Shown piece after piece: positions 363 through 58,700 of a DNA stretch of 64,000 nucleotides; the stretch's first letter is position 1; each line of letters begins with the position of its first letter. The notes beneath the pieces were generated by a model that ran no database searches, had not been told where the DNA came from, and saw only the letters and a list, made by a program, of their open reading frames with translations. A program made the position numbers and the translations under genes. This stretch comes from Magnolia sinica (taxonomy: Eukaryota > Streptophyta > Magnoliopsida > Magnoliales > Magnoliaceae), in NCBI RefSeq assembly GCF_029962835.1, contig NC_080582.1, positions 76,132,177-76,196,176 on the forward strand. Reading direction: 5' to 3'.

Positions 363-3300
363 GGAGGACCTGCTGCTCTCATCAAGGCTGAAGTGCCATG
401 GTCTGCCCGAAGAGGCAACCTTAACGAGAAGGAACGAGTTTTGAAAACAGTTAAAGGGTACTTAATTTTGGATGTTTTATATTCATATCATAATGATTAT
501 TTCAGGCTGGAAATGCGAGTTAACATGCATCATTGACTTTGAGACTTGATTCTGCATTTAAATAAGCAACATTCTAAAAAATGAGTTTTGGTCCACTGTA
601 CAAGGCGTATCTTCTACATGTCCACACATGTACCAATCTCCACTCTGTCCATCAGGTGGGTCTGACCATGTAGATGTTCTCAATCTCATCTGAAAATCAT
701 GCTGGTTTATTCATCAGGTGGGCCATACTGTTAGAAACATGTAGATGGCCTAGTAAAATTCAGTAAGTTTTATCCTTCAAAATTTCCCCTAGCCCTGCAT
801 TTTCTTATTGTTATAGTTTGGCCCGCCTGATTACTAGACCAATCTGATCTTTAGTTCATCTACATATTGGACCTCCCTGATGGATGGGTCAGATCCCCTA
901 CCTATACCCCATGCTCGCATGTGGTGGTATCTACAGAGCTGCCTTATGCACACTTGTGGGCTTATCAAAGATCTTAGACACCAGTTCTGTTTTTGGAACC
1001 TGGGATAACTAGTTCAGGCCTAATACTGTTACTTATAATTTGTTTGGTGATGAAATGGTAATTTTGTTTCATAGGATACTGAACAAGCTGACCCCGGAGA
1101 AATTCGATCTTCTCAAGGGACAATTGATTGATTCTGGAATCACCACACCAGATATCTTAAAGGTTTTCATTTCTTGGAAATTAGATGCTTGTTTCTCTTG
1201 CAGAGGTCTCTTAGAGTTATCATTCTCTGACTGGCTTTGCTAATTGCACATGCAACACAGGGTGTCATAACACTGATATTTGACAAGGCGGTTTTGGAAC
1301 CTACGTTCTGCCCCATGTATGCTCTTCTATGTTCTGATCTCAATGAAAACCTCCCGCCATTTCCTGCTGATGAACCTGGTGGAAAAGAAATTACGTTCAA
1401 GCGGATCCTTTTGAATATTTGCCAAGAGGCATTTGAAGGTGCAGACAATCTGAGGGCTGAAATTAGACAAATGACTAGACCAGAGCAAGAGCTAGAACGT
1501 AGAGATAAGGAAAGGATGGTGAAACTCCGCACCCTCGGAAACATCCGTCTCATCGGTGAACTTTTGAAGCAGAAGATGGTGCCGGAGAAAATTGTCCATC
1601 ATATCGTTCAGGTATTTAGAGCACTTTTCCATGGCTGGTCCGGTCCCTGTGCCTCCTGATAATATCTTAAGCTGGTTTGCTATTTTAAAAAGTGGCCTGA
1701 TGATCTGTTGGTATTGAACAGGAGTTGTTGGGGCATGATGGCAAGACATCTCCTGATGAGGAAAATGTTGAGGCTATCTGCCAGTTCTTCACCACCATCG
1801 GCAAGCAGCTTGATGAAAGCCCAAAGTCCCGCCGTTTCAATGATGCCTACTTCAATCGGCTGAAGGAGCTGACGACAAATCCCCAGTTGGTACTGCGGTT
1901 GAGGTTTATGGTCCGTGATGTTCTGGAATTGCGTGCCAACAACTGGGTCCCTAGGCGTGAAGAGGTAAACATAGTCATTTCTTGAATAAGACCCGACTGT
2001 GCTATGATCCTAACCTGTCTTTTGAAAGCTAGTCCAGTCCAGTCAGTTTGCCCTGACTGACAGATAACTGCGTGGATTTTCCACCGTTCATTGAGTGGTT
2101 GTAACTCATCCACCATAGGAGGCATGCAGACATTAGATCATGGTCCCATCATGAATGGATATATCAGATGGTACAATCATAACCTTCTGATATCATCTTC
2201 TGAATATGGACCGTGGGCCATTTACTTCCTCGTCATGCATGTGATGGCTGCCAATTGGATTGCTAAGATTGTTTGATGTGTGATGAGGAATCCCATATGT
2301 GCGGTCTCTGGATATCATATCCACATTGGGGCCCATACTCATTGTTGGATGAGCTACCATTATCTGAGAGTGGGTGGAAATGCATGGTAACATAATTAAT
2401 ATGGATGAACGCGGAAAATGATAATATAAAATTGTATTCAACATGTGGCTTAGTCTGGCCTTTTGAAGCGCAGATGTGATATTCAACTAATTCTTCTTCT
2501 TCTTTTTTTTAATTATTGTTCTGAATTTACTTCTCACAAAGAGTGGGTTCTAGTAGCATGGAATTGGTAGTGCAAACCTATGTTTTAAAACCTGGACCCG
2601 ACCTCAATCTACTTTCTTCTTCTTTTCTGGCCAATTTGGTTGAACTGCTGATGAAAATGGCCAGAACCTCTGTCTGCTATGGCCTGGAAATTTGCTTCAT
2701 TTGAAATTCTAAAGAGGAAAAAAGGAGCTGATCTGCTGTTGGCCTAGTGGGTTGGAGTGTTTAGTTTCAACTTTCAAGTACAGGGATGAGCTTGAGCTTT
2801 GATGGTTGTTCCTGTTTTGGATTTTTGGTAGCAGGTTCTGGTCCAAACTGGTCTGACTGCTTGGTCCTGTCTGTTTTCGAAACCATTGATTTGGACCTTC
2901 AATTTGAGCATGTGGTTCCTTTTGTTTTCAGGTGAAAGCAAAGACTATCAATGAAATCCATTCAGAGGCAGAGAAGAATCTTGGGTTGCGGCCTGGTGCT
3001 GCCGCATCAATCAGAAACGGCCGGGGATCTGCCGCAGGTGCTCTAGGGGGTATTGGGCCTGGTGGCTTTCCAATCAACCGACCTGGCGCCGGCGGCATGA
3101 TGCCCGGAATGCCTGGAACTAGGAAGATGCCTGGCATGCCTGGGATCGATAACGACAACTGGGAGGTCCCCCGTTCCAGGTCCATGCAATCATCTGCCCG
3201 AGTTCAGGCTCCCTCAGTCACCAAGCCGGCACCCCTCAGCAATAAGTTCTTACCACAGGGCAGCGGTGGTGTGATAACTGGCAAGATGAGCGCATTGCTA

Positions 3301-3960
3301 CAGGGCAGCGGCGGACTGCCTGCCCGCACCTCTGGTTTGGTTTCAGGAGTGGAACCCTTGGCCCAAAACCTGGCGCCTGCGAAGCCCCTTGGTCCCGCAC
3401 CATCTGTGCTCCCGGTTTCTCAGAAGCCGTCAACTGCTGCAAGAGCAAACCCGGCTGATCTGCACAGAAAGACTGTATCACTTTTGGAGGAATACTTCAG
3501 TGTTCTCATTCTCGAGGAAGCATTGCAGTGCGTGGAGGAGTTGAAAAGCCCTGACTACCACTCCGAGCTCGTCAAGGAAGCTATTTCTCTTGCCTTAGAG
3601 AAGAGCCCGCCTCTTGTATCATCTGTCTCCAAGCTCCTGGAGTTCCTGTTTACCAAGAAGGTTCTGACTGCTCGCGACATAGGGACTGGGTGCCTGCACT
3701 ACGGGTCAATGCTTGATGATTTCGGCATTGACATTCCAAAAGCGCCGAGCAATTTTGGTGAGGTGGTTGGGCAGCTGGTCTTGGCAGGTGGCCTGGATTT
3801 CAAGGTAGTGAAGGAGGTATTGAAGAAGATTGAGGATTCAATGTTCCAGAAGGCAGTGTTTGATGCTGCCATGAAGACCGTTGGTTCGAACCCCACTGGG
3901 CAGGTGATATTGGCTTCGCAAGCAGCCGAGATCAGCGCATGCCAGGGCCTCTTCTCTTGA
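363..3960 (+). CDS. eIFiso4G: Eukaryotic translation initiation factor isoform 4G (eIF(iso)4G), 5' partial
   Basis: Scaffold of the plant cytosolic cap-binding complex eIF(iso)4F; it bridges eIF(iso)4E, eIF4A and eIF3 to recruit mRNA to the 40S subunit. Visible exons are 363-457, 1075-1162, 1261-1611, 1722-1964 and 2932-3960. All junctions are GT/AG and the frames join without a break, giving 601 residues. The first exon reads [18 protein letters not shown], a typical plant eIF(iso)4G segment. The MIF4G domain follows ([17 protein letters not shown], later [20 protein letters not shown]), spanning exons 1 to 4. The last exon has a Gly/Met/Pro-rich linker ([14 protein letters not shown]), then the MA3 domain at about 3463-3840 ([13 protein letters not shown] to [10 protein letters not shown]). 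The protein ends [14 protein letters not shown], as in the family. Relatives are about 780 aa, so roughly 180 N-terminal residues, including the eIF4E-binding site, lie outside the window. Introns of 617 and 967 bp hold degraded repeats. Confidence 0.96.
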
Positions 3961-5795: not shown

Positions 5796-7310
5796 ATGGC
5801 TTGCCTAATTCTCTGCTCTCCGTCCTTGCCATCTTCTCCCAACCAACGCCAATGGAATAAGCTTATCAAACAGCAAGCTCTCAGTGGCAACATGGAACAA
5901 GCAATTTCCATGTTCGTGAAGATGCTAGAAGCAGGAATCAGCGGTGATAATTTCACGTTCCCGATCGTACTCAAGGCGGCCGCTTGTCTTTCATCCGCAT
6001 CTACTGGTGCCAGCATTCATGGCCACACCATAAAAACCTGCTTCTCGATTCATGCTTTTGTGCAGACCGCTCTCATCAACATGTATTCGACGCTTGGACA
6101 CGTCGAACATGCTCGTCTGGTGTTTGAGAAGATGTTGCATAAAGATCTGATTTCTTGGAATTCCATGCTCGATGCGTATGCTTCTCGTGGGCAGATGGAT
6201 GATGCCGTCAAGTTGTTTGATACAATGCCCGTTAGAGATAAGGTTTCTTTCAATATCATGGTCTTTGGGCTTTCGAATATTGGACGGGAAGATTTAGCAG
6301 GGCAGATGTTCGATGGAATTCCTGTTAAAGATGTTGTCTCATGGAATTCGATGATTTCTGCCTATGTCAAGGTGGGAAAGATTGATGCAGCTCGCGGTTT
6401 ATTTGAACGGATGCCAGAAAGGAATGTAGTCTCTTGGAATGCGATCATTGCTGGTCATGTACAAAGTCATCGCTACATTGAAGCCGTTGATTTGTTCTAT
6501 GATATGAAGGCCCATGTCGTTAAGCCTAACCATCTGACTCTGGTGAGTGTCTTATCTGCATGCGCCCACATGGGTTCGCTTGAAATTGGAAGAAACATGC
6601 ACATCCATGCAATGGAAACTGGACTCGCATCAGATCACTGTGTAGCCACGGCGCTGATAGATATGTATGCAAAATGTGGCAGTATAGAAAATGCTCTTGA
6701 GGTGTTTTACAAGTCTCAGGAGAAGGATGTATTCTGCTGGAATTCAATGATTTCAGGACTGGCAATTCATGGCCATGGCCAAGCTTCCATAAAGCTCTTC
6801 CATGACATGAGAAGCCAAGGCGTGAAGCCTGACGATATAACCTTCATTGGCCTTCTGAGTGCATGTAGCCATTCAGGGTTGGTAGAGGCAGGCTGCCGCA
6901 TCTTCACATACATGGACGAACACGGCATTTCACCCAAGTCAGAGCACTATGGATGCATGGTTGATCTTATGGGCCGTGCGGGGCTGCTTGATAATGCTAA
7001 TGAGATCATTGAGAGCATGCCATTTGAGCCTGGAGCGAGCGTCTTGGGTGCATTGCTTAGTGCTTGTGTTGTTCATAGGAATGTGGAGATGGGCCAGATC
7101 ATCGCCGAGCGGGCTGCAGCTAGAGCTGATTGTATGAGTGATGGGGAGTATATGATGCTGGCTAACATGTATGCAACATGTGGGAGGTGGGCAGATGCAA
7201 GTAGATGGAGGGCTGTGATGAATGATGCAGGGATTAGTAAAACAGCTGGTTGTAGCATGATTGAGGTTAATGGTAGATTGCACAGGTTTCTGGCTGGTGA
7301 TCTTAAATGA
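5796..7310 (+). CDS. Pentatricopeptide repeat protein, PLS class, E-type end
   Basis: Intact intronless frame of 504 aa. Proteins of this family bind single-stranded RNA in plastids or mitochondria, and PLS-class members usually specify sites of C-to-U editing. Tandem motifs fill most of the protein; typical cores are DLISWNSMLDAYASRGQMDD, DVVSWNSMISAYVKVGKIDA and NVVSWNAIIAGHVQSHRYIE. Then come P-type motifs (ALIDMYAKCGSIENALEVF) and the E-domain region (HYGCMVDLMGRAGLLDNANE, ANMYATCGRWADASRWR, GCSMIEVNGRLHRFLAGD). The protein stops right after HRFLAGDLK, so there is no full E+ or DYW domain, and any deaminase activity would have to come from a partner. The first ATG is used: it precedes a short Leu/Cys/Ser-rich leader and the first repeat. 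The target RNA and organelle cannot be read from the sequence. The gene stands alone between repeats. Confidence 0.93.
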   Translation: MACLILCSPSLPSSPNQRQWNKLIKQQALSGNMEQAISMFVKMLEAGISGDNFTFPIVLKAAACLSSASTGASIHGHTIKTCFSIHAFVQTALINMYSTLGHVEHARLVFEKMLHKDLISWNSMLDAYASRGQMDDAVKLFDTMPVRDKVSFNIMVFGLSNIGREDLAGQMFDGIPVKDVVSWNSMISAYVKVGKIDAARGLFERMPERNVVSWNAIIAGHVQSHRYIEAVDLFYDMKAHVVKPNHLTLVSVLSACAHMGSLEIGRNMHIHAMETGLASDHCVATALIDMYAKCGSIENALEVFYKSQEKDVFCWNSMISGLAIHGHGQASIKLFHDMRSQGVKPDDITFIGLLSACSHSGLVEAGCRIFTYMDEHGISPKSEHYGCMVDLMGRAGLLDNANEIIESMPFEPGASVLGALLSACVVHRNVEMGQIIAERAAARADCMSDGEYMMLANMYATCGRWADASRWRAVMNDAGISKTAGCSMIEVNGRLHRFLAGDLK

Positions 7311-7745: not shown

Positions 7746-7997
7746 ATCCTGTTATAATTACCATATTTCCGAACATATGCGATCATTCTCTCAAGTAAAT
7801 AGAGAACACTATGGTTATGTGATGATACATTGAACAGAAAAGGAGGCCCATCCATGTTTGTTCTTGATCATTGAGGTCCATCGTCCGACCCATCCATGAT
7901 GAGGCAACATAGTGGTGAAAATGGTCTGAGCTTGGGCTTGTCCTGGCTGTTTGTGGAGCTGATCTATCCATCTGGCTTATAGTTCAAGCTCAGGCCA

Positions 7998-8303
7998 TGG
8001 TGGCCCACTAGCCAAGTACCGATCGTCTTGTGGTAAAGACGCCGATAGATCGAGCTTGCCAATGCCATTCTATTGGAGTAGAGATATGAACCAATTAGGT
8101 GTCAAAAATTGTCTCTCATCTCTTTTCATTTTTGTTCAGCCTTTGGTTATATACATTTAAAAAAGAATAAAACCTAAAACCTATTCTTTGCTATACAATT
8201 CCGTCTCCTAGACTCATGCTAAACTCCCTTATTCACGGGATGTTACAGATTTCAAATGCCTAAAATCTCTCTTGGTTGTTTACAATGACAGCTCACGCCA
8301 ACA
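7998..8303 (-). repeat. 3' LTR of the copia element
   Basis: Pairs over 306 bp with 12643-12948. Its right end GCTCACGCCAACA adjoins CTCCCCCTCAAG, the complement of the polypurine tract, which fixes this boundary well. The left boundary near TGGTGGCCC is less certain. Confidence 0.88.
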
Positions 8304-11300
8304 CTCCCCCTCAAGTTGATGCATAGAGGTCTCGCATGCCCAACTTGTCAAGTGAGTTGTAGAAGTCCTTGCTAGATACAACTTTTGTAAGGATGTCCAC
8401 CAACTGATCTTCGGATTTCACAAACGGAAACCTAATTGTTTTTGCTTCAAGATTCTCTTTGATGAAGTGTCGATCTACCTCCACATGTTTAGTACGATCA
8501 TGTTGAATAGGATTGTGAGAAATGGCAATTGCAGCTTTATTGTCACACAAGAGATCCATCTCGGAAGTGGGGGCAAACCCGATTTTAGTGAGTAGCTTTC
8601 TTAGCCAAAGGAATTCATAAAGACCCTTAGTCATTCCCCTAAACTCAGCTGCAGCACTTGACAAAGCTACCACTTTTTGTTTCTTGCTTCTCTAGGTTAC
8701 AAGATTTCCCCCAACAAATGTAAAATATCCTGAGGTGGACTTTCTGTTATTGATATTACCTGCCCAATCTGCATCCGTATATCCATAAACCATCGACTAA
8801 CTGTTATGTTTTGAGAACATAAGTCCCTTGCCCAGGGATGACTTCAAGTATCGAAGTATTCGAATCACTGCTTCCATATGACTTTTACTTGGATTATACA
8901 TAAATTGACTTACAACACTTACAGCGTATACAATATCTAAACGAGTATGAGAGAGATAAATGAGTTTACCAACTAACCTTTGGTATCTTCCTTTATCTGT
9001 TGGTACTTGGTCTGGGTATTCTCCAAGCTTGTGATTCTGAACCATGGGGGTGTCTACAGGTCTACACTCCAACATCCCTACTTCAGTTAGCAAGTCTAAT
9101 ATGTATTTCCATTGGGAGAGAAATATACCCTGCTTAGACCTAGCAACTTCAATTCCCGAGAAATACTTGAGTCCTCCCAGATTTTTCATATCAAATTCAG
9201 TTGCTAATTGCTTTTGAAGCAGATAGATTTCTTCATCATCATCTCCTCTAATAATCATGTCATCTACATAGACTATCAAAGCAGTTACCTTGTCCAACTG
9301 ATGCTTTAAGAACATAGTATGGTCAGAGTTACTTTGTTGGAAGCTATATTTCTTCATTGCCAAGCTAAGCCTTCCAAACCATGCTCGTGGTGATTGCTTC
9401 AGTCCGTACAACGCTCGCTGCAATTTACACACCACTCTATTATTTGAAGATGCTATATAACCTGGAGGAATATCCATATAAACCTCTTCTTGGAGATCAC
9501 TGTTGAGAAAAACATTCTTTACATAAAGTTGATGCAAAGGCCAATCAAGATTTGCTGCAAGAGATAATAACACCCTAACTGTATTCAACTTGGCTACAGG
9601 TGAGAAAGTCTCCTGATAATCGACACCATACGTCTGCATATATTCCTTCACTACTAGTCTTGCTTTGTACTGTTCAACAGATCCATCTGCTTTGTGTTTA
9701 ATGGAGAACACCCATTTACACCCCACGGTTTATTTTCCTTCAGGTAATGGAACAAGAGTCCATGTATCATTTTTAAGTAGTGTCGCCATTTCTTCCTCTA
9801 TAGCTCGGGTCTATCTTAGATTTGCCAATGCCTCATGAACACTGGTAGGAATCTGACATATGAAGAGTTCCTGTGCAAATTTCTTGAGAGGTTCAGAGAG
9901 TTCCTTGGTGGATACATAGTTAGCAATTGGATACCTCGACCTTTGTTCTTCAATATCTGGAGAGTATCTATTAGGTGGCTTGCCACGATTGTACTTGTGA
10001 GGTAAGACATATCCCGCAGAAGCATCTATATCATCGGTATGTAAGGGTGTAATAACAGTACTTACCTCAGGAGTATTCTCAGGAGATGATTCGGCTGACA
10101 CTTCAGAGGGAGGGGATATAGGTTCGGTCTCAGATGTTGCATGCTCTACATTAGGATATATCTCGGCTTCACAGTTCACAACGCCTGAGTTATCATTCGG
10201 CCCATCATGCTCCTACGGCTTTTCATGATTCTGCCCCTCATGTCTGAACCAATCAAACTCATTCGGCATCTCATGTTGGAACCAATTCAACTCTTCATTA
10301 TGTATCTCCCCCCGAAGAGGAGAAGTAGGTGCCGAAGAGGAAAAAAACATATCAGTCTCCAAGAATTGGACATCCATTGTCACATAGAGTCTGCGAGTGG
10401 TAGGATCATAACACCGGTACCCTTTTTGATGGACGCCATATCCCAAAAACAAACACCGACGTGCACACGGATCAAGTTTAGTGCGTTGGTTCTTGTGGAG
10501 ATACATATAAACGACACACCCAAAGACGCGATGAGGAAGCATCAGTGCGGTAGGTAGTAACACAAGTAAAAAGACATTGGAATGGTGTCTGAAAGGATAA
10601 AACCTTGGAAGGCATTCGGTTGAGAAGATGGACAGCAGTTGAGACGGCATCGGACCAAAACCGTTTAGGCATATAAGCACCGAGATGCAAAGCACGAGCA
10701 GTCTCAAGAACATGTCTATTCTTCCTCTCGGTGACACCGTTCTATTGAGGTGTTTGTGAGCATGAAGTTTCATGAATTAAACCATGTAGAGTAAAGTCCA
10801 CTTTAAGGTGCTTATTGACATATTCACCACCATTATCAGAGTGGAGAACCTTCATGGTGGCACCGTACTAAGTACCAACCATAGCATGTAATGTTTCAAA
10901 GGCAATGAGAACCTCATCTTTGTGTTTCATCAAGTAGAGTCATGTCATACGGGTACAATCATCCACAAAAATAACAAACCAACGAAAGCCAGACATATTA
11001 GTAACAGGTGAGGGCCCCCATACATCAGAGTGAATTAACGCAAATGGAGTGTCACTTTTATTCATGCGTAATGGATAAGTAGCACGATGGCTCTTAGCCA
11101 AAATACAAGTGTCACATTTCAAATCAAAAGTATGTAAATGCTTAAACAGATCAGGAAAAACATGCTTCAAATAAGGAAAAGATGGGTGTCCCAAGCGTCG
11201 ATGCCACAACCAAAGTAGTGTCTCTTTATCAGCATGCGGATGGTTCATGTTATTGGCCTGGCCGATACTGATGTCTTCCACATAATATAATCCCCCCCTC

Positions 11301-12642
11301 TTAGTACCACGTCCAATTATCTCCTTGGTGAGAATATCCTGAATAAGACAGAAGTTTGGATAAATAAGTACAACACACCCAAGGTCTGCAGTAAGCTGAC
11401 TTACAGACAACAATTTATGGGATAGAGACGGAACAAGTAAAGTATTAGATAAATGCAAGGATGGAGATAAGGTCACAAAGCCAGCTCCAGTGACTGGTGA
11501 GATAACACCATTTGCATTGGCTATGCTGGTGCATCGCGGAAGAGAGGTCTGAGAGAGTCCGAGGCAGCAAAGGTCATATGGTCAGTGGCCCCCGAGTCGA
11601 GAAGCCATGCGCTATAGTCCGCATCTCTGTGGGAGGTAAAAAGAGCAAGACCAGGGATACTTGAGTTCAAGTTGGGAGGAGCATCCGTGGACGTTGCAAC
11701 TGGTTGTATAAGAGATGGGGCTCTGCAGCAGCAACAACAGCTGTGCTTGAACTTCCATTAGTTCTAGTTCCATAAGAATGTTTACGAGCTTGAAGATCAT
11801 GCCACCAATTAGGGTACCCATGCAACTTAAAACAATTTTCACGTGTGTGTTTTTGGTTTCCACAATGAGAACATTTTTTCACATCAGTAGAATTTCGGGT
11901 CTTGGAAGATTTACCAGGGGCAGAGGTGCTTAACATAAGGGCTTTGGAGGCCAAGACAGCCCCCTGGAGCCCATCGGTGTTATGGGAAGTCATAACTGCT
12001 GTCGAATAGCCTCTTGTCTAACATATGCATACGCTTGTTCGACAGTAGGAAACGGTTTCATCTATAAAACATTAACCCGTATTTTGTCTAGCTGATCGTC
12101 AAGACTATCCAGAAACATATAAACACGGTCTTCCTGGATGATCCGATTATAGTGCTGAATATCAACAGAGCATTCCATAGGATTTGGCCGGCGAAAATCA
12201 ATTTCACGCCATAAACCCTGCAACTCAGTGTAATATTTTTCCAACGAGCCAGCGGCTTGCTTCAGTCGTGTCACACGCCATCGAAGATCATAAACTTGTG
12301 AGGTATCACTACCATCAAAGAAGGTAGTTGCAATGGAATCCTAAACCGTTTTTGCCGTAGGAAACCAAATAAAATTGGCAATTAAGGATGAATCCATGGA
12401 AGAAATTAACCAACCTTTAACAATGGCATTATCAGTGCGCCAATGGCGAAAGGAGGGATCAGTTGGTAACGGCTAGGGAAAGTCACCGTTAATGTACCCC
12501 AGTTTGTCCTTGCCAGAGATATACATCTCGACAACCTGAGACCACAGTGCATAGTTGGAACCATCCAACTTAATGCCGATCGGAGCAGCAGATGTTTCAG
12601 TGGTGATGGTCGGGGTCCGAGCATTATTCAAAACCTCGGTCA

Positions 12643-12948
12643 TGGTGGGCCACTAGCCAAGTACCGATCGTCTTGTGGTAAAGACGCCGATAGATCGAGC
12701 TTGCCAATGCCATTCTATTGGAGTAGAGATATGAACCAATTAGGTGTCAAAAATTCTGTCTCTCATCTCTTTTCATTTTTGTTCAGCCTTAGGTTATATA
12801 CATTTAAAAAAGAATAAAACCTAAAACCTATTCTTTGCTATACAATTCCGTCTCCTAGACTCATGCTAAACTCCCTTATTCACAGGATGTTACAGATTTC
12901 AAATGCCTAAAATCTCTCTTGGTTGTTACATAATAGCTCATGCCAACA
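12643..12948 (-). repeat. 5' LTR of the copia element
   Basis: Same length and about 97% the same as the copy at 7998-8303. It contains ATATACATTTAAAAAAG and CAAATGCCTAAAATCTCTC like its partner. The gag start lies immediately to its left, so the usual primer-binding site is not obvious. The exact LTR edge may lie a few bases off. Confidence 0.85.
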
Positions 12949-46700: not shown

Positions 46701-49700
46701 TGAAAAATAATTTGTAATGTAAGCTACATAGCATGTAGCCTAGTCTTTGTAGCGAATAGCATATGCAAATTATCATGTAGCGTAGGCTACACAACTCAAG
46801 CTATTTTCATGAGCTACGTAGCGATAAGGCTAAGCTACACTAAATAGCGTCAGCTACATGCTACATAGTTGTTCAAGGATTTGTTGCACAAGCACTTTCC
46901 GTATTTTAATGCACACAAAGTTTCTGGAATTTTGATGTGAATACTGATATTGCAAAATACTTGTTTGGTAATACGTAAAGCAGGTCATCAGTCATGCATC
47001 AACAATGTGTGAGGAGAACATCTTCAGTCACACTTTACCGGACTATCAAATACTGTTCATGAATTATGATTGCCTGTCGTAGAAGTTTAATATAGTTCTT
47101 TCTCAGCCTAGTTTGCCATTTGGTTATGTCGATAGAAGTGGAGTATCTAAACACTCAATTCCTATTTTTACAGCAAATATAGGTATGAGCAGCAAAAGAA
47201 GAAAAGGGGGCAACAGAAAAAAAGTGCTGGTGAATATCTTATCCTTCCCATTTCCTTTTCCCTATATTCTTTTGGAAATTTAGTCAAGGTTTTGTCAGGA
47301 AAGCTATTAAACTTCTTATTTGACAAAGCAGCACCTCTTATACATGGTCTTGAATGTGCAGCAAGTCGTATGGATATGAAGGAGCTCAAAATGGGGTAGG
47401 ATTTGTTTATTTTCATTTCTGTATGTCATTTGATCCTTCGTAGCTGGTTTTGTTTTGTACTTGACTAGTCTCCTCATTGCTAATAAAAAGGTAAAAAGAA
47501 AGAAGAAGAAAAAAATGAAAACAAAAGGAGAACAGGTAGACTACTACACCCATTTTTCACCATCTCTTTAGGGCCTGTTTCAATTGAAGGTAAACTAGGG
47601 GAATGCAAGTGAAAGAAAAAACATAAACATAAGTGGGAGGTAAACTGACACCAGTGCTAGGGTAAGTAAATCCTTTGCACCTGTTTGTTTTGCTAAGAAG
47701 AAGTCTCGGAAAATGCTTTTAAAAAAAAAAAAATTTATTATATGCATTTGCAACTGTTTGGATTGCAATCCCACAACGGGAAATCTTTTTCCCTCCAAAA
47801 TTGCCATTTGAAACATCACATCAGAGGCAAACTCTTTTCCCTCTATTTGTCTTTTTGAAAAAAAAAAAAAAAAAGGTGTACTCCCTTGTCGATAAGGGAA
47901 AAGAAAATGCAAACACTTTGCTGCAGCATCCCCTGCTTCCCAAACAGTTGCAAATGACTTGTCGATACAAACTGGTTGCATTCCCCTGTTTGCATTCTAC
48001 CCAAACAGGCTATAAAGGTGGTGACTCATCGGCCATCAACATGGCCTCGTTGTCAATGGAGCATGTCCCAAGAATAAATTGATTGGAAACCCTTTACCAT
48101 CTGACATTGGCCATTGAATTTAGACCACTGACTATTTTCTTCATAGTGGTCTGTTTGATGATTGCAAATTGGATTCTTCACGTCGCCTGTTTTCAGTGTG
48201 GCTTGACTGTACTCCATCCACAACCAGGTCAATGATTTCGACAGTCTGGGTTGACATACATTTATGCCATATGTATGGTGGATAAATTACCACCATTCAG
48301 GAAATGGTGGAAAATGAGGGCCGTGTCTATAGTCACAAACCATTGAAAAGCGTACCTTCACAGTTCTTTCTACTTCTTTGCATCTGCATTCTTCTTTATC
48401 AGCATTGAATTATTAACCCCTTTCTAGAGATTTGGATTAATGTGCTAGAAAATGTTTTTGATAGATTAGCCTGAGGTCTAAACCCCTGACCTCAATGTTA
48501 TATCCTTGAGGCATAGCCAATTTGGTGAAGGCACTTCATTGTGCTAAAGAAATGGTTAAGACTTTGCTTTGCATTTCCCACAACTGTATTAAGTGGGTGG
48601 CGATGACACATCCAGCATACATGTGGTATACATGCATGTCAATCCAGACTGTCAGAGACTCCAAATTGTTGGTGGATGGAGCATATATCTCAGAAATTGT
48701 ACTGATTAGACAATCTGAAACATTTCTTTTGCATTTTGAATTTGCACCATTGTCCTTTTTTCTTTCTAACCATTTATTTGTTAGGATTGTTTGATTGATC
48801 TGCATGCATGCCACATGCACATTAGACAGGTCAGGAAGGATGCAGGACAGATGTCTAAAAGCTGTAAAATGAAGAGTGATTTGTTGGTTGAAGAATTGGG
48901 GATGGAAAGAGAAAAGAAGAAAAAAAGGATGGATTTGGAATCTCTCCTCAATCTAGAAGGATCACTTTGAGCAAAGGATCATTGCGCTCCTAGGAAAATC
49001 CCTCACACCTTTTCCAATGAAAAAGAACTAATCCTACTCATTCATTGATTCTAATTATAGCCATCTATTTTAATAAAATAATTGATAGTGAAACATCCCT
49101 AACAAGTAACAACCATTTTGTAAATCAGTCATAACTCACTCAAATAATGTTAGAATCACATTGGGGATTTTTATAGGGATTGAAAAATAAGAAAGGAAGT
49201 GAAAAGAAGAGAGAGAGAGAAGAAAAGAGGAGATTAGTGTTTGCACTTTCCCACTTCTCTTTTATACTGAAAGTGATAAAAAAGCAAAAATGGCGAAACT
49301 ATCCCTAATACAAATATCTATATGCTACATATCCCAAAGACCAAAAAGACTAAACATGCATGTCCAGCTTGAAAACTGAGACTTTCTAAGGGCACTGGTG
49401 AGTAAATCCGCCATTTGATCATGAGATGAAATATCAGGTCTATGGATTTGTCCCAGAGATATCTAGTCTTAAATGAAATGGCAGTCAACCTCTGTTTGTT
49501 TCATTCTCTCATGAAACACTGGATTATTTGTAATATGTACCATAGCTTGATTGTCGCAGTCTAAAGACATTAGAACCTGAACTTCGAATCTCAATTCTTC
49601 GAGAAAAGATTTCAACCATATAAGTTCGCAAATTGTATGCGCCATTGACAAGGTGTTCCTGTTTCGACAAGAAACAAATGCATTTGATTTGGGGAAATGT

Positions 49701-52700
49701 TCAATAACAACAAAGAAAGAATGAGAAAACAATGATCACAAGATGTTTAATCAATCTGAGTTCATTTATATCCTCATATTCCCTTGATTCTCAGATAGAT
49801 TATAATGAATAGGCACAATGAATGAAAGAGAAGGTAGTTTAATAGGAATTTTAGCAGTATTTCGACGCTTTTGATGTTCATTGCAAAGGCAGATGAGTTA
49901 TGCGAACTCAAAGCCCCTGATTCCGCAGTCTTAAGTTGCGCGGGTGCACAATTGAGGAAACGCTTGTGGGCCACATGGTGTTCTAGCAAAAGGGTTGTGT
50001 GCCCCACTGACCACCTAGTGCACAACAGGTATTGCCAATGCCTGGATTCTCTTGAAGTCTAAACCTTTCTCTCTCTTACGCTTTGATGTTGCTCTTTGAG
50101 GTTTTCCAAATTTCTGTCTAAATGAAGATGGAAGAGAGAGGTATTTATAGATCTCTCACGTATGTATAGATCATTCGTCTGAAGGTGAGAGTGCACAATC
50201 CAAGGTGGGAGCGCACAAGCTCCTTCAAACATGGAGCACACAACCCTTAAGAAGTGATGCAGGGAGCTTTCCTCAGGTGCACAACATTCTCCTTGAGAAG
50301 TGGCGCAGGAAGCCTGGCATTAGGACAAGATTCTACATGAAATGGCGCACAGACCTTGCTTCAGGACAGTGTTGCACAAGAAGTGGCACACAGGAAGCCT
50401 TGCTTTAGGACAATATTCCCATAGAAGTGGCGCACAGAGGTTGCATTAAGACAAGAGAGAGAAGTGGCGTTGTGTGTTGGGACGGGAGAGAAAGAAGGGA
50501 CGTTGTGCGTTGGTATCAGGACATGGCCCTTTGAAAGTGGCGCACAAAGGTTGTATTTGGACAAGGGTCCATTGGAAGTGGTGTACAAAGCAGGGTATTA
50601 GGACATGGGCGAGAAAGATATGACGCACAAAGCAGGGTATTAAGATAAAGGAGAAAGATATGGCGCACAAGGCAGGGTATTAAGACAAGGGAGAGAAATA
50701 CATGGAGCACAAGGCAGGGTATTAGGACATGGGTGAGAAAGATATGGTGCACAAAGCAGAGTATTAAGACAAGGGAGAGAGATATGACACACAAGGCAGG
50801 GTATTAAGACAAGGAGAGAGATATGGCGCACAAGGCAGTTGCGCACAAAGCAAGTCTTCAGGACGAGAGAGAGAGGTGGTGATGAGACAAAATCCCTTTG
50901 AAAGTGTGTTGTGCGCAAACCCTTTTGAGGGGTGTTGTGCGGACAATAGGTTGTGCGTCCATACTCCCTCCAGCGCACAACCCTTCTTCAAAGAGGGGCG
51001 GACGATCTCCACTTCCTTCTCCCCACTTTTCTCTCTCTCTTAAATGAAGAGTAAGTAGAGGTATTTATAGACTTCCCTTCCTTAAATAGTGGTGATCACC
51101 ACCACTTCCTCCTTTAAGACAACAACCAGCCTGCTTTCTTAAACAGTGGTGTTCACCAACTTCTTCCTTAAATAGTGGTGTTCAACCACTCCTTAATACA
51201 AGGCAATTTCCATTCCTCCTTAAGACAAAGCACAACCGTCCTTCATCCCAGGTGACGCCCATGCACTCCTCTATCCCAGACAACACCTGTGCACTCCTCT
51301 ATCCCAGACGACATCCATCCATTTTTCTATCAAATGACACCTGTCCATTCTTCCATATCAAATGACATCCGTCCATTCTTTTATCCTAGATTACATCCGT
51401 CCATTTTTCTATCCCAGATGAGATTTCCAGAGAGAGATGGAATATTTTTTGTCCTCAACAAATGCCTAACAAGTAGAAAGATGACACGACTACAAAAGAC
51501 AAAGTCATGTATTCCTTTTCATGTGAATGAATAAAAAGGGCGTAAATTTCCAAGCAAGGTTTCTTAAGCATATTAGGCATATTAAGATTGAGCACAACGT
51601 CGATGATTGTTGTCAAGCGTTGATGATTGCTGTCGAGCGTCGATGATTATATCGCCACACGCCAATGATTTTCGTCAAATTCGCCAAGTATCAATAGTTA
51701 TCACCAAAATTAGCAACTATCGCTGTCATCATCAATCGCCCATATGAGATTATTTTATTAAAATTACTATCATCGCCAAGCTGATGTACTATCTTAAACA
51801 TAATATGAGTATCTCAGAACATTATTAGCAGCGGCGAAATATCAATTATTGGTTCACCATTTTTGGCAGTGGAACAAAACTATATGGCCAACCACATATA
51901 AAGTTGACGACAACAATGGTAGCTTATCATTTAAGGCAGCCTAGCCAAGCCCTATACGGCCAACTACGCATAAGACCTATCATCATCGTCTATATATGAC
52001 AATAGTGAGCGCTTGAGCAGATATATGTAACAAGCTTCAATGACTCGAAGAGCCCGAAATCGGCGGTAAACTATAATTGCTCTTTGAGCCCAAGTCTTGT
52101 CCAGTCAAGTTGTGTACAGTTTAGTCTAGTTTAGTCAGGTCAAGTTCAGTCTTGTCCAGTCAAGGTGTGGTTAGTCAAAGTGCACTAGCTCCATTATTCA
52201 AAAGCTTAAACTATGCGTAGCATCAAAATGCTACAAAAATACATGATAATCTATTTACTTTAGATACGCTCAAATATGCAATTTCCTGATGAAAATTTCA
52301 AATATTGATCAAACAATATACAAAAATGCATTTCTGTTGAATCAGGTTTAATTTACAGCAACAGCAAATGCCTTCAAAATATTGGCAGTTTTCTATTCAA
52401 AAGTTCAAATCTTCAAGATTAACTACTAGTCTTCAACTACAATATATTTATTCCTCTGACAAGAGCTGCAAGGTCCTTCTGTCTCTTGCCTATTTGATGA
52501 TGAAGAAATATTATCTCACAAAATTCTCAAAGGCGAGAAAGAATAAGCTAGCAAATAATTATCATTCTCTTCTGGACCATCTAAAGATTCAGATATATTC
52601 TTTGGATTCTTTAAAAGGAGCATCGAGGGTTATTCATCCTTCAAGAGTATCAGCAGACTTTATTTTCTTGAATATTATCTTCCGAAGAGATCCTTATACA

Positions 52701-55700
52701 AAGTTGACTTGGAAAGAGGGCATGATCTATTTCTTCAAAGTAATTTATGCCTTGGTCTTTCTGATAATTTCTTATGCGTGGCAGAGGGATCCATATGGTA
52801 TAATCTACTAAGCAATAATCGTGCGCTAAGTAGTATTGATGATCTCATCAACGCACTCAACTATAAGAAGCATGAGCTGAATAATTATAGCCGATGAAGC
52901 ATGATCCAATGTGAACGTTCAAAAATGGTTTTTATATCAAGGCCCAGTTATATGGTCCGATGCTACAACTTCTTACTGTTCTAGTAATGACATCGCAAGT
53001 CTCCGAGTATTTGACCCGATGAAGACAAGGAACAAATGATTATCAAAAGTGATAGAATCATCATCAGTAACTTCTATGGCCTTCGGAAAGCTATTAAATG
53101 GAATTGAGAGAAGTCTTATCTATTTTTCTGAATCAGCAAAGGTTCAGGAAAAATATATTCCTAGTCACCCCATAAAGAAATGCCAAGGAGCACAAATTAG
53201 AAGAGATTCAGCGATTGAACCTCTAGAGTCGGAAATGACATCTCCAAAAGCACGATATATAGTGAAGCATGATGACGAGCACAATAAAGGGATAATTAAA
53301 TCATTATCATATTGCAAATATTATAATCATTCCAGAAGTTTTCAATATAATTTCAAAAATATATGTACTTCATAAAAAATTATAATATCTTGAAATACTA
53401 ATTCCGATTAATTTGGCAGGAAAGATTACCATTTGAAAGCTTAGGTTATGCAGACCATGATTAAAGGAGACAATCGAAAAAAAAAAAAAAGTTGTTGCAG
53501 CAGGAGCAGTGCTAAAGAACAATTCTCTAGATGCAAAGTTCAAAGAAAGAGCTGCAGGAATTAATCAAAAACATTGTTGCAGCAATAACAGCATTGCAAG
53601 AAAGTTCTTTGGCCAAGATACTCAAAGATGAAGCTATCACATCTATTACAGTGACAAGTTTCGATGAAAAGAGAATTTATCCTCTCTATTAAAGCATCTG
53701 CTCGACACTGCTGGTTGGGGGCATTCAATCTTCTGGTCGAGTATGATCATTCAGTCTTCCGTTCGAGCATGATCATCCAGTCATCCTTTAGTCACAATTC
53801 ATTCGGTTCTTCAGTCAGGCGATTCTTCTTCGTTAATGCGACTACATTTCAAGAAGAATCCTTCTCTGACGTGAAGGGATTTTTGTGTAGAAGAGGATCG
53901 ATCCTCCATTTGATCTCATAATTCAATCAAAGAAGGATTGAGGGTGCATCTGTTGAGGCACAAAAAATATTCTATTTCTCTCTCTAGAAATCTCATCTGG
54001 GATAGAAGAATGGACGGATGTAATCTGAGATAGAAGAATGGATGGATGTCATTTGATCTGGAAGAATGGACGGGTGTCATTTGATAGGAGAATGGATGGA
54101 CGTCGTCTGGGACAGAGAAGTGCACGAGTGTTGTCTGGGATAGAGGAGTGCATGGCGTCACCTGGGATGAAGGACGGCTGCACTTTGTCTTAAGGAAAGG
54201 AGGAACAGAAGTTGCCTTGTATTAAAGGAGTGGTTGAACACCACTATTTAAGGAAGAAGTTGGTGAACACTACTGTTTAAGAAAGTAGGCTAGTTGTTGT
54301 CTTAAGGGAGGAAGTGGTGGTGATCACCACTATTTAAGGAAGGGAAGTCTATAAATACCCCTGCTTACTCCTCATTTAAGAGAGAGAAAAGTGGGGAGAA
54401 GGAAGTGGAGATCGTCTGCCCCTCCTCTTTAAAGAAGGGTTGTGCGCTGGAGGGAGTATGGGCCCATAACCTATTGTCCGCACAACACCCCTCAAAAGGG
54501 TTTGCGCACAATGTCCTTCAAGAGGACTTGCGCACAACACACTTTTAAAGGGATTGTGTCCTAACGCCACCTCTCTCTCTCTGTTGTCCTGAAGACTTGC
54601 TTTGTGCGCAATTACCTTGTGCGCCATATCTTTCTCTCCCTTGTCTTAATACCCTGCCCTGTGCACCATATCTTTCTTCCCTTATCTTGATACCCTGTTT
54701 TGTGCGCCATATCTTTCTCACCCATGTCCTAATACCCTGCCTTGTGCGCCATATCTTTCTCTCCCTTGTCTTAATACCCTGCCTTGTGCACCATATCTCT
54801 CTCCCTTGTCTTAATACCCTGCTTCGTGCACCATATCTTTCTCACTCATGTCCTAATACCCTGCTTTGTGCGCCACTTTCAATGAACCCTTGTCCAAATA
54901 CAACCTTTGTGCGCCACTTTCAAAGGGCCATGTCCTGATACCAGCGCACAACGTCCCTTCTTTCTCTCCCTTGTCCCAGCACACAACGCCACTTCTCTCT
55001 CTCATCTTAATGCAACCTCTGTGCGCCACTTCTATGGGAATATTGTCCTGAAGCAAGGCTTCCTGTGTGCCACTTCTTGTGCAACACTGTCCTGAAGCAA
55101 GGTCTATGCGCCATTTCATGTGGAATCTTGTCCTAATGCCAAGCTTCTTGCGCCACTTCTCAAGGAGAATGTTGTGCACCTGAGGAAAGCTCCCTGCATC
55201 ACTTCTCAAGAGACTTGTGTGCATCACTTCTTAAGGGTTGTGCGCTCCCACCCTGGCTAATGTTATGTGTTCCCACCTTGGATTGTGCAGTCTCACCTTT
55301 AGATGAATGATCTATACATACGTGAGAGATCTATACATACTTCTCTCTTTCATCTTCATTTAGACAGAAATTTGGAGAACCTCAAAGAGCAACATCAGAG
55401 CGTAAGAGAGAGAAAGGTTCAGACTTCAAGAGAATCCAGGCATTGGCCATACCTGTTGTGCACTAGGTGGTCAGTAGGGTGCACAACCCTTCTGCTGGAA
55501 CACCATGTGGCCCACAAACATTTCCTCAATTGTGCACCCGCGCAACTCAAGACTGCGGAATCAGGGGCTTTGAGTTCGCATAACTCATCTGCCTTTGCAA
55601 TGAACATCAAAAGCGTCGAAATATTGCTAAAATTCCTATTAAACTACCTTCTCTTTCATTCATTGTGCCTATTCATTATAATCTATCTGAGAATCAAGGG

Positions 55701-58700
55701 AATATGAGGATATAAATGAACTCAGACTGATTAAACATCTTGTGATCATTGTTTTCTCATTCTTTCTTTGTTGTTATTGAATATTTCCCCAAATCAAATG
55801 CATTTGTTTCTTGTCAAAACAATTCCATAATGGTAACGGTGGCGTAACCCATAACGGCTGTTACAACCCCCCCCCCCCCCTTCGGTATCGGCCATTACGT
55901 CTCTCTCTCTCTCTCTCTCTCTCTAAAAAATTGTTATAGGACCATTACCATTACAACCTATTTTTTCTACAATAACTGTTACGGCAGTTTCAACCCTCTA
56001 ATGCATAACAGTTATGACCGTTACCGTTACATAACCGATTTTAAATACCATGGTCATTGACCCATGTTTAACACTTGATCTAGCAACCACGTTCTGTTTT
56101 TTAGTTTTCCAAGTAACCACATTACTGCCTAGGAAAGTGCAATAACCCATAGTTGGCCTTCTATCATGTCTTGACTCTACATAATATGTATCTGAATGAC
56201 CAATTGCTTGAAGATGATCATGAACTCTGTATAAGATACTCTTCCTATGTGAACATTTCAAATACCTAAGAATCCTCATGACTGTTGCTAAATGTGGTGC
56301 CTTCGGACTTTGCATGAATTGATTTTGCCATACTGATTGAGAAGGCAATATCCGCCCTGGTGATGGTCAAATAGATGAGTTTGCTAACAAGTCTCTTGTG
56401 CATACTACATACTAAGGTTTCCTAATAATTCTCCTTTCTCAGGTGGAAGTTTGAGATAAGGGTTTATTGATGTATCAACCGGTTTGGCACCCAACACCCC
56501 TGTCTCTTCCAACAAGTCACAAACATAACTTTTTCTTAAAGAAATTTATTCCCTACTCAATGCCTAGAAAATATCAAGGAAGACTAAGATCTTTAATTTG
56601 AAATTAAGTTTGAAGATATGACTTTAGTTTTTTCAACACCCTCAAGTCATCAGCTGCCACTATAATATCATCCACATACACAACAAGAATAATGTAGAAC
56701 GAGATAGAATGCTTTAAGAAAACTAAGTAATTTACTTTACTCATTTTTAATCCAAACGATACAACCACGCTACTAAAATTTTCAATTTAGACCTGTGGTG
56801 ATTGCTTCAACCCGTATATAGATTTGTTCAACCTGTAGATGACTCTCCCTGAGCAACATACCAAAGAGGTTGCTCCATGTAGACTTCTTGTAGATCTCCA
56901 TGCAGGAATGTGTTCTTCACATCCAGTTGAAAGAGAGGCCAATCATGATTTGCAACTAGTGATATAATAACCCAAACCGATTCAAACTTAGCCACTGGTG
57001 ATATATATATATATGAAAGGAAAGCGTATCCAGATAATCTAATTCATAAATCTGAGTATACCCCTTGGTAAACAACCTGGCTTTGTATCGATCTATTAAC
57101 GCATCTACAATTGACTAGAGTCTTACCTGAGGTAAGATCAATCAGCTTCCAAGTATCATTGGAGTACATGACTTCCATCTCTTCATCAATAGCTTATTTC
57201 CAATTTTCATTCAACAATGCCTCCTGGATTAACTTAGGAATGGGTACAACAGACAAGGTAAGGGAAAAATTATAAAAAATTGTGGATAAATGGGAAAAGG
57301 TAACAATGATAGAAGGACTAAAAACCTCAGTAGGCACAATAATCGAATGAGTGTGTCGAAGATGAATAGTCTGTAATGCCTAGTCTTTTCTCATTTTTCT
57401 GTAATAAGTCTACTTGAAATCCTTTTGAAATCTGAGGTGACAATGGTATCTTGACATCAAATTCTGAAGGAAATACACTTGGCGGGAGAGCTTCCACAAA
57501 TGGGCAGTGACAACACACACAGATGTAGCATTAACAACACACTCATTTTTTAACGGAGAATGGAACGTTTTCAAGGAAGTTAATATCAATAGTCACAAAA
57601 TTGTTCTTAAGAGTGGAAGAAGAGCACCGATAACCCTTTTGAGTATGAGAATATCCTAGAAAAATATACTTATCTGAATGAGATAAAAGTTTATCTTGAC
57701 CTAACTCAAATATAAGCAAAGCAAGTACAAAAAAAAACTTTGGGAGGAACAAGAAAAATTAGTTGATTATGAAACAATAGAGAGTGTTGTTTTATCATCT
57801 AAAATCGATGAAGGCATCCTATTGATTAAATTACATAAAGTAAGAATTGCGTTACCCCAAAAGATCTGCAAAACATTGATTTCTAGTAATAAGGTTCAAG
57901 TAACTTCCCCCGGATGTCTATTCTTGCGCTCAACCACCACATTTTTGTTAAGCTTTATAAAGCATCAAAGGTATGACGAATAATACCCTAACTTTCTAAA
58001 TAAGTTTGGAAATCTTGAGAAACGAATGTCAAGACATTATCTTACTTGAATATACCCAATTTCGCAGAAAATTGATTCTTTATTTCATTATAAAAAATTT
58101 GAAATACACAGAAGACTTTCGACCTATGCTTTGTTAGATATAATCATGTCATCCTAAAGTAATCATCAAGAAAGAAAACAAACTAGGGACTTTAGCCGGT
58201 CCCCACACATTACTATGAACTAATTTTAATGGAACATCACCTCTTGAATCAATTCTAGATGGAAAAAAGAACTCTATGATGTTTGCTCATCTCGCATGCT
58301 TCGTACTCCAAATTTGCCACCATAGGAAGTGATGGGATGAGAGTTTCTAGATTTGGAAAGACGAATGTCTCAAATGACGATGCCATTGAATTGTCGAATC
58401 CACAAGAAGCACTGCCGCATTTACCAATTCCCTTTCCAAGTAGTGCAAGCCGTTCTTCTCACGACCTCCACCAATTGTCCTACCCATCTTGAGGTTCTAA
58501 AACACACAAAAAGGACACAGAACAATTCAAATATCGTATTAGTTTACTAATAAATAAAATGCTAAATAGAAACTTGGGTGCATATAGAATTTGACGACAT
58601 GGAGATTGATGCATTAGGCCAAGCAGTACCAAATCTAATGACACTAGATGATGTACCATAAGCTAAAGTAACCAACGTATTTGATGAAACACACTTAATG

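Follow-up and report, generated by a model that had tools for sequence, protein, structure and literature searches.

How does a plant genome come to hold an element whose two long arms look like long terminal repeats (LTRs) and yet stand in inverted orientation? The question is raised by an element at positions 49660-55821 of a 64,000-nucleotide stretch of the Magnolia sinica genome, hereafter the window (76132177-76196176 of contig NC_080582.1, labelled C10 in the assembly searched, which has 1.84 Gb in 127 contigs). An earlier note on the window had placed the element between known classes and suggested a new non-autonomous family. The best explanation, to which we give a probability of roughly 0.7, is a single LTR-retrotransposon insertion that arose from an aberrant snap-back complementary DNA (cDNA) with U5 at both ends and was integrated by integrase. 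Taken together with further inverted loci, C16 and C11, the element points, on sequence comparison, to an ordinary LTR retrotransposon that has repeatedly given rise to aberrant products and not to a class that propagates in inverted form.

Two LTRs with U5 facing outwards

The two arms align in opposite orientation (49660-51465 against 55821-53946) at 89.9% over 1,881 columns, gaps included, and with gaps excluded they differ by 95 transitions and 13 transversions at 1,795 sites (Kimura two-parameter distance 0.064), or about 6% substitutions. The inverted arms of the earlier note are thus confirmed, with borders refined to those of Table 1, as is their LTR nature, given the TGTT..AACA ends of both arms when read in the LTR sense and the direct LTRs of their relatives. 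The TATAAATA box is present in the right arm with a counterpart in the left, and the purine-rich tract described ahead of the inner TG of the right arm is real (AAGAAGGATTGAGGGTGCATC). This polypurine tract (PPT) is complete at the right arm only, where its position is matched by GAAGGATCGAGGGGGCATC, which directly precedes TGTTG in C16 and in a further copy, C10a; the left arm carries its last 6 nt, which read GGCATT on the minus strand versus GGCATC in C16 and C10a. The element has the TG..CA ends and, with a match at 4 of 5 positions, the 5-bp target-site duplication (TSD) of an LTR element, but it departs from the layout of direct LTRs with a primer-binding site (PBS) after the 5' LTR and a PPT before the 3' LTR. 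The arms do not stem from chance, and a hairpin read artefact is an unlikely source, because they differ by these substitutions and by insertions and deletions and because both flanks belong to a single Copia.

Orientation is given by the relatives. In a comparison of U5 ends, for which 30 rows were printed and 28 counted (the repeats L024 and L030 being left out), a PBS-like stretch (AAATGGCGACTCCACTGGGG and variants) directly follows the U5 end in 8 of 28 (L005, L008, L015, L017, L018, L025, L028 and L029), and no such stretch follows the U5 end of the four arms of the window and C16. Because the same end of the relatives precedes the PBS-like stretch, each window arm is read as having its U5 at the outer end, and the presence of two U5 outer ends is well supported by this comparison. 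Within 4 substitutions and on either strand, no PBS-like site was found anywhere in the window element or the C16 element; the same test found the site in C5, C6 and C13.

These last three, the relatives examined, are ordinary elements of the repetitive family to which the arms belong. They share with the window the kind of LTR and, upstream of the 3' LTR, the window centre as their 3' internal domain, and C5 and C6 also have 5-bp TSDs (GTGGA/GTGGA and CTATT/CTATC; this comparison comprised C5 and C6, the flanks of C13 lying outside the stretch compared). They differ from the window in having direct LTRs and a PBS-like site after the 5' LTR, whereas the window LTRs are inverted with U5 outwards and no PBS was found. 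Retrotrans_gag (PF03732) was found in the pieces of C5 and C6 that were tested, pol was not recognised in the open reading frames (ORFs) of at least 90 aa of C5, C6 and C13, which were read by eye only, and from the gag remnants the family is probably Ty3-type. In the window element itself neither gag nor pol was seen: one 156-aa ORF of the centre gave no match when tried against Pfam, and a six-frame reading of the centre by eye revealed no long gene. No recombinase was seen in the centre by eye or with that one ORF against Pfam, no wider search against recombinase models having been made.

Other copies fill in the family. In C14 no left LTR was found in the 4.3 kb upstream of its centre, and the copy yielded no inverted arm; in C8, a same-strand LTR pair, the flanks that follow the two U5 ends are identical, and no inverted arm was found there either. 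C10a and C10b, 57 kb apart, are mutually nearest and have flanks (GCGCT/ATGCT) that match at 3 of 5 positions, and nested insertions may have split what was a single element. A complex with the opposite layout was seen at C5:56271500-56285000 (L038+L037+L039), where LTR(+), a PBS-like site, 1.27 kb and LTR(-) follow each other, the exact U5 end of the last facing inwards; its inverted repeat is 86% alike over 1.7 kb, and its LTRs seem to hold an internal U5-like duplication.

Further inverted loci and their junctions

The arm gave at least 77 matches in the genome (best 40 of 3,362 candidates scored) and the centre at least 120 (best 40 of 2,330), LTR pairs across the family being counted by eye. 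Among the best 40 arm candidates, same-strand pairs within ~20 kb occur at seven places and divergent pairs at two, the window and C16, and among 100 of 1,084 LTR places listed there are 12 same-strand neighbours closer than 30 kb, one convergent pair and zero divergent pairs. C11 and C17 turned up when two separate LTR searches were combined. The proposed search for further loci with inverted arms has returned at least C16 and C11, each with its own near-TSD. The window, C16 and C11 have exact outward U5 ends, a TSD, a contained short arm, a locus-specific junction and arms that are nearest to each other, and C17 follows this plan in part; at all four loci the short arm reaches from U5 to a switch point that falls within the stretch covered by the long arm. 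C11 and C17, as their alignments indicate, carry the same plan with other LTRs than those of the window and C16. Because the class was defined from these same loci, their fit to a snap-back class is a description and no independent test.

In C16 the short arm extends from U5 to LTR position 547 and is joined to centre position 1706 with a CCC overlap, the arms being 87.5% alike (BLAST). In C11 a point ~100 nt inside the PPT is joined to the tandem-repeat part of the LTR with a TCTT overlap; since the switch point lies within tandem repeats, its exact LTR position is ambiguous, and the short arm is broken by a nested 1.85-kb insert. The window junction differs from both of these, which have overlaps of 3-4 nt, and on its internal side it lies just after the second PPT-like motif, AAAAGGGGGCAT, of C5 and C6. 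A genome-wide search that covered the window junction alone, with up to 3 mismatches, gave 1 match, the window itself (control, 1 per strand). With a single occurrence of this pattern genome-wide, a foldback family that propagates is unlikely on these sequences, and a single inverted family was rejected on the same search. The earlier proposal of a new non-autonomous family is therefore not supported: the window junction occurs once, those of C16 and C11 differ from it, the arms of each locus are mutually nearest, neither the window element nor that of C16 yielded a PBS, and the relatives are ordinary direct-LTR elements.

At the fixed U5 ends, near-TSDs are found in the window (GTTCC/ATTCC), C16 (ATGTT/ATGCT) and C11 (CCTTT/CCTTC), each matching at 4 of 5 positions, that is in three of the four divergent loci examined; the chance of at least 4/5 is 1.6% per locus. 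Arm distances were taken over 865 gap-free columns for the window, C16 and C6, and, for C11 and C17, over the final 290 bp in a set of 16 LTRs. The p-distance between arms is 0.045 in the window and 0.076 in C16, as against 0.136-0.146 between the two loci (both pairs with bootstrap 100), and that between the direct LTRs of C6 is 0.087 (bootstrap 100); the arms of C11 and C17 differ by 0.040 and 0.047, respectively, with the next copy at 0.094 for each. This suggests that, as with LTR pairs in general, the arms of each locus were made alike when that locus was inserted, an outcome that later gene conversion between arms could mimic.

Proposed origin of the U5/U5 molecule

Minus-strand DNA would start at the PBS, at the U5 end, run through R, U3, the PPT and ~2.5 kb of the internal domain and stop at the second purine tract, a plausible pause site. 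The nascent 3' end would then fold back onto its own strand, prime synthesis where PPT and U3 meet and copy the LTR back to the U5 terminus, giving the order LTR(inverted)-internal-PPT-LTR with U5 at both ends and no PBS. Second-strand synthesis would presumably complete the molecule before integration, and integrase would use the pair of U5 ends as it does the usual U3 and U5, leaving a 5-bp target duplication. Before folding back, synthesis would have passed the PPT by ~2.5 kb in the window, ~0.8 kb in C16 and ~0.1 kb in C11, and in C17 would have reached only into U3; a retained PBS copy, possibly that of C17, could, speculatively, allow second-strand priming. Integration through two U5 ends is suggested by the exact ends and near-TSDs, and the short arm from U5 to the switch point that snap-back requires is seen in C16, C11 and C17. 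The elements of the window and C16 should not serve as normal templates, because no PBS-like site was found in either.

We infer snap-back in preference to head-to-head joining of two cDNAs. The same anatomy would result if one particle held two incomplete double-stranded cDNAs, whose ends lay at the 3' PPT and at an internal purine tract, respectively, and if end joining linked them before U5/U5 integration, which we consider unlikely, although the window junction, an LTR with 6 PPT-side nt placed just after the second GGGGGCAT tract of C5 and C6, looks like two plus-strand starts ligated without overlap. By contrast, the junctions of C16 and C11 lie away from such tracts and have overlaps, and in four loci one partner is an LTR (with at most 6 nt more) inside the span of the other, as snap-back predicts and random joining does not.

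Several observations weigh against the snap-back explanation. At the window junction two purine-tract sites meet and no overlap is clear, a picture that a head-to-head union of two plus-strand starts explains as well as snap-back does, and the exact second-tract motif is absent from that place in C13. The hairpin would have to become double-stranded before two-ended integration. None of the three inverted loci with a TSD has a perfect one, and C17 lacks a TSD at its fixed ends (CATTT/TCCCT) and shows a PBS-like stretch of ~18 nt beyond its left U5. From the 1,084 sites, chance alone would give about 0.7-1.0 divergent LTR pairs within 4.5-6.5 kb, so divergent pairing alone proves nothing. Lastly, the window and C16 fall into a single narrow subfamily, in which six LTRs at the four places window, C16, C10a and C10b match at least 83% over the whole query, the LTR tree joins them against C10 and C6 (bootstrap 100), the window is third-nearest of 16 to C16 in the centre comparison, and the centre tree does not reject a window and C16 clade (approximately unbiased, AU, test, p=0.244). 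As a separate observation on C17, the far end of its PBS-like stretch on the plus strand reads TCCCT, and the right flank has these 5 bases as well (L052 1430-1530 and 4793-4800).

The shared subfamily, the LTR tree and the unrejected centre clade would also speak for a small family moving in inverted form, ancestral to the window and C16, with the arms kept alike at each move. Such a family is nevertheless very improbable: the junctions differ and that of the window was found once, no PBS was found in either element, the LTR promoters point outward, of the 15 other centre copies 7 lie nearer to the window than C16 does, and the plan recurs in C11 and C17 with different LTRs. The centre tree leaned against the clade, but because the AU test leaves it unrejected the argument for independent origins rests on C11. 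Equally slight is the chance that a normal insertion was rearranged later, with one LTR inverted and the 5' half deleted, or that LTRs of separate insertions were brought together. Nested and tandem LTR complexes exist in the family (C5:56.27 Mb) and approximately one chance divergent pair is expected genome-wide; against this, exact outer U5 ends stand beside near-matching 5-bp flanks in three loci, the window flanks are parts of one Copia and the arms of each locus are mutually nearest.

At a little under even odds, we would go further and regard snap-back minus-strand cDNA with two U5 ends as a recurrent and uncatalogued route of insertion, which delivers ready-made foldback loci and implies that, in the plant germline, U5/U5 ends are a usable substrate for integrase. 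Should the route prove general, mining of genomes could test three things: the places where reverse transcripts pause and fold back, the need of integrase for one U3 and one U5 end in vivo, and the way in which retrotransposons give rise to long inverted repeats, which are sources of hairpin small RNA. U5/U5 snap-back loci would then be natural sources of hairpin RNA and could seed foldback elements.

Known systems, the host Copia and the remaining window

Palindromic retroviral cDNAs were reportedly described by Olsen and Swanstrom in 1985. Retroviral autointegration yields rearranged circles (PMC3148978). Both kinds of defective retroviral cDNA share with the window element inverted segments or LTRs made around reverse transcription. 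The autointegrants of that account are circles (PMC3148978), whereas the product in the window is integrated in a plant locus with a near-TSD at two U5 ends. Autointegration was rejected for the window: it needs a PBS beside the U5 of the 5' LTR and gives a circle or fragment with no host TSD, and here both U5 ends abut host DNA and no PBS was found. Foldback elements (FB, plant foldback) have long inverted arms with tandem subrepeats and TSDs of the 9-bp type. The window element shares the long inverted arms and their subrepeats, but its arms are LTRs, its near-TSD has 5 bp and the three compared junctions differ; with a flank match over 5 bp only and a junction pattern found once, the element departs from foldback elements, which form propagating families of like structure. 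DIRS elements are not known to leave a TSD. As outlined in PMC5633606, DIRS-1 has ORFs surrounded by inverted LTRs and encodes a tyrosine recombinase, and circles are presumed to be the form that it integrates. The inverted LTRs are shared with the window (PMC5633606), but the near-TSD of the window element points to integrase; with this near-TSD present and no recombinase seen, DIRS was rejected. A DNA transposon (MULE, hAT, CACTA) was likewise rejected, as the flanks match over 5 bp only (by eye) and the inner arm ends are LTR ends. No description of an inverted-LTR plant insertion was found in the open-licence literature searched. Annotation tools look for direct LTRs, and because of this U5-out inverted insertions are likely missed or called foldback.

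The flanks of the window element align to adjoining residues of a Copia found elsewhere in the window (Table 1), so that, on this alignment, the element interrupts one single, decayed Copia. Neither flank peptide has a Pfam match, and the Copia call for the flanks therefore comes from tblastn.

Table 1. Coordinates of the inverted element and its host Copia (window positions) and of the further inverted loci.
Feature	Position	Strand	Remarks
Host Copia, RNase H part	49373..49648	-	aligns to residues 365-456 of Copia at 8311-9729 (tblastn)
Left TSD copy GTTCC	49655..49659	.	read from sequence; 4/5 against right copy
Left arm, complete LTR, 1,801 bp	49660..51460	-	U5 end outward (49660), U3 end inward (51460); arm alignment, orientation from relatives
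Left LTR TATA box TATAAATA	51062..51069	-	
Last 6 nt of PPT, inverted (AATGCC; minus strand GGCATT)	51461..51466	-	attached to left LTR
Head-to-head junction, inverted LTR / internal domain	51466..51467	.	
Asymmetric centre, 2.49 kb	51467..53950	+	3' part of ordinary element's internal domain; no coding sequence recognised
PPT (AAGAAGGATTGAGGGTGCATC)	53930..53950	+	ahead of right LTR
Right arm, complete 3' LTR, 1,871 bp	53951..55821	+	U5 end outward (55821)
Right LTR TATA box TATAAATA	54350..54357	+	
Right TSD copy ATTCC	55822..55826	.	
Host Copia, RT to RNase H start	56073..57105	-	aligns to residues 15-358 of Copia at 8311-9729 (tblastn)
C16 inverted locus	47016576-47020438		right LTR + PPT + 0.85 kb internal domain (centre 1706-2488), then inverted partial LTR
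C11 inverted locus	65532190-65536624		left LTR + PPT + ~100 nt internal domain, then shortened inverted LTR
C17 inverted locus	15619914-15623191		arms 89.6%; turn inside U3 near TATA box

Between the right TSD and the Copia frame lies an insert of ~220 bp with C and CT runs (55827-56045, borders by eye), and the Copia bases on either side of it appear, also by eye, to be duplicated. Elsewhere in the window, whose PPR gene, MIF4G and MA3 domains and Copia are plant-like, a minus-strand Copia at 7993-12948 has 313-bp direct repeats (96.5%) and RVT_2 and gag_pre-integrase domains, and many dispersed related stretches, mostly of 160-450 bp, in both orientations and 67-85% alike, lie within 5412-39930. 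At 1231-3957 and 5796-7307 there are gene pieces with MIF4G and MA3 domains, which we take to be probably eIF4G-like, and an open PPR-E protein gene of 504 aa.

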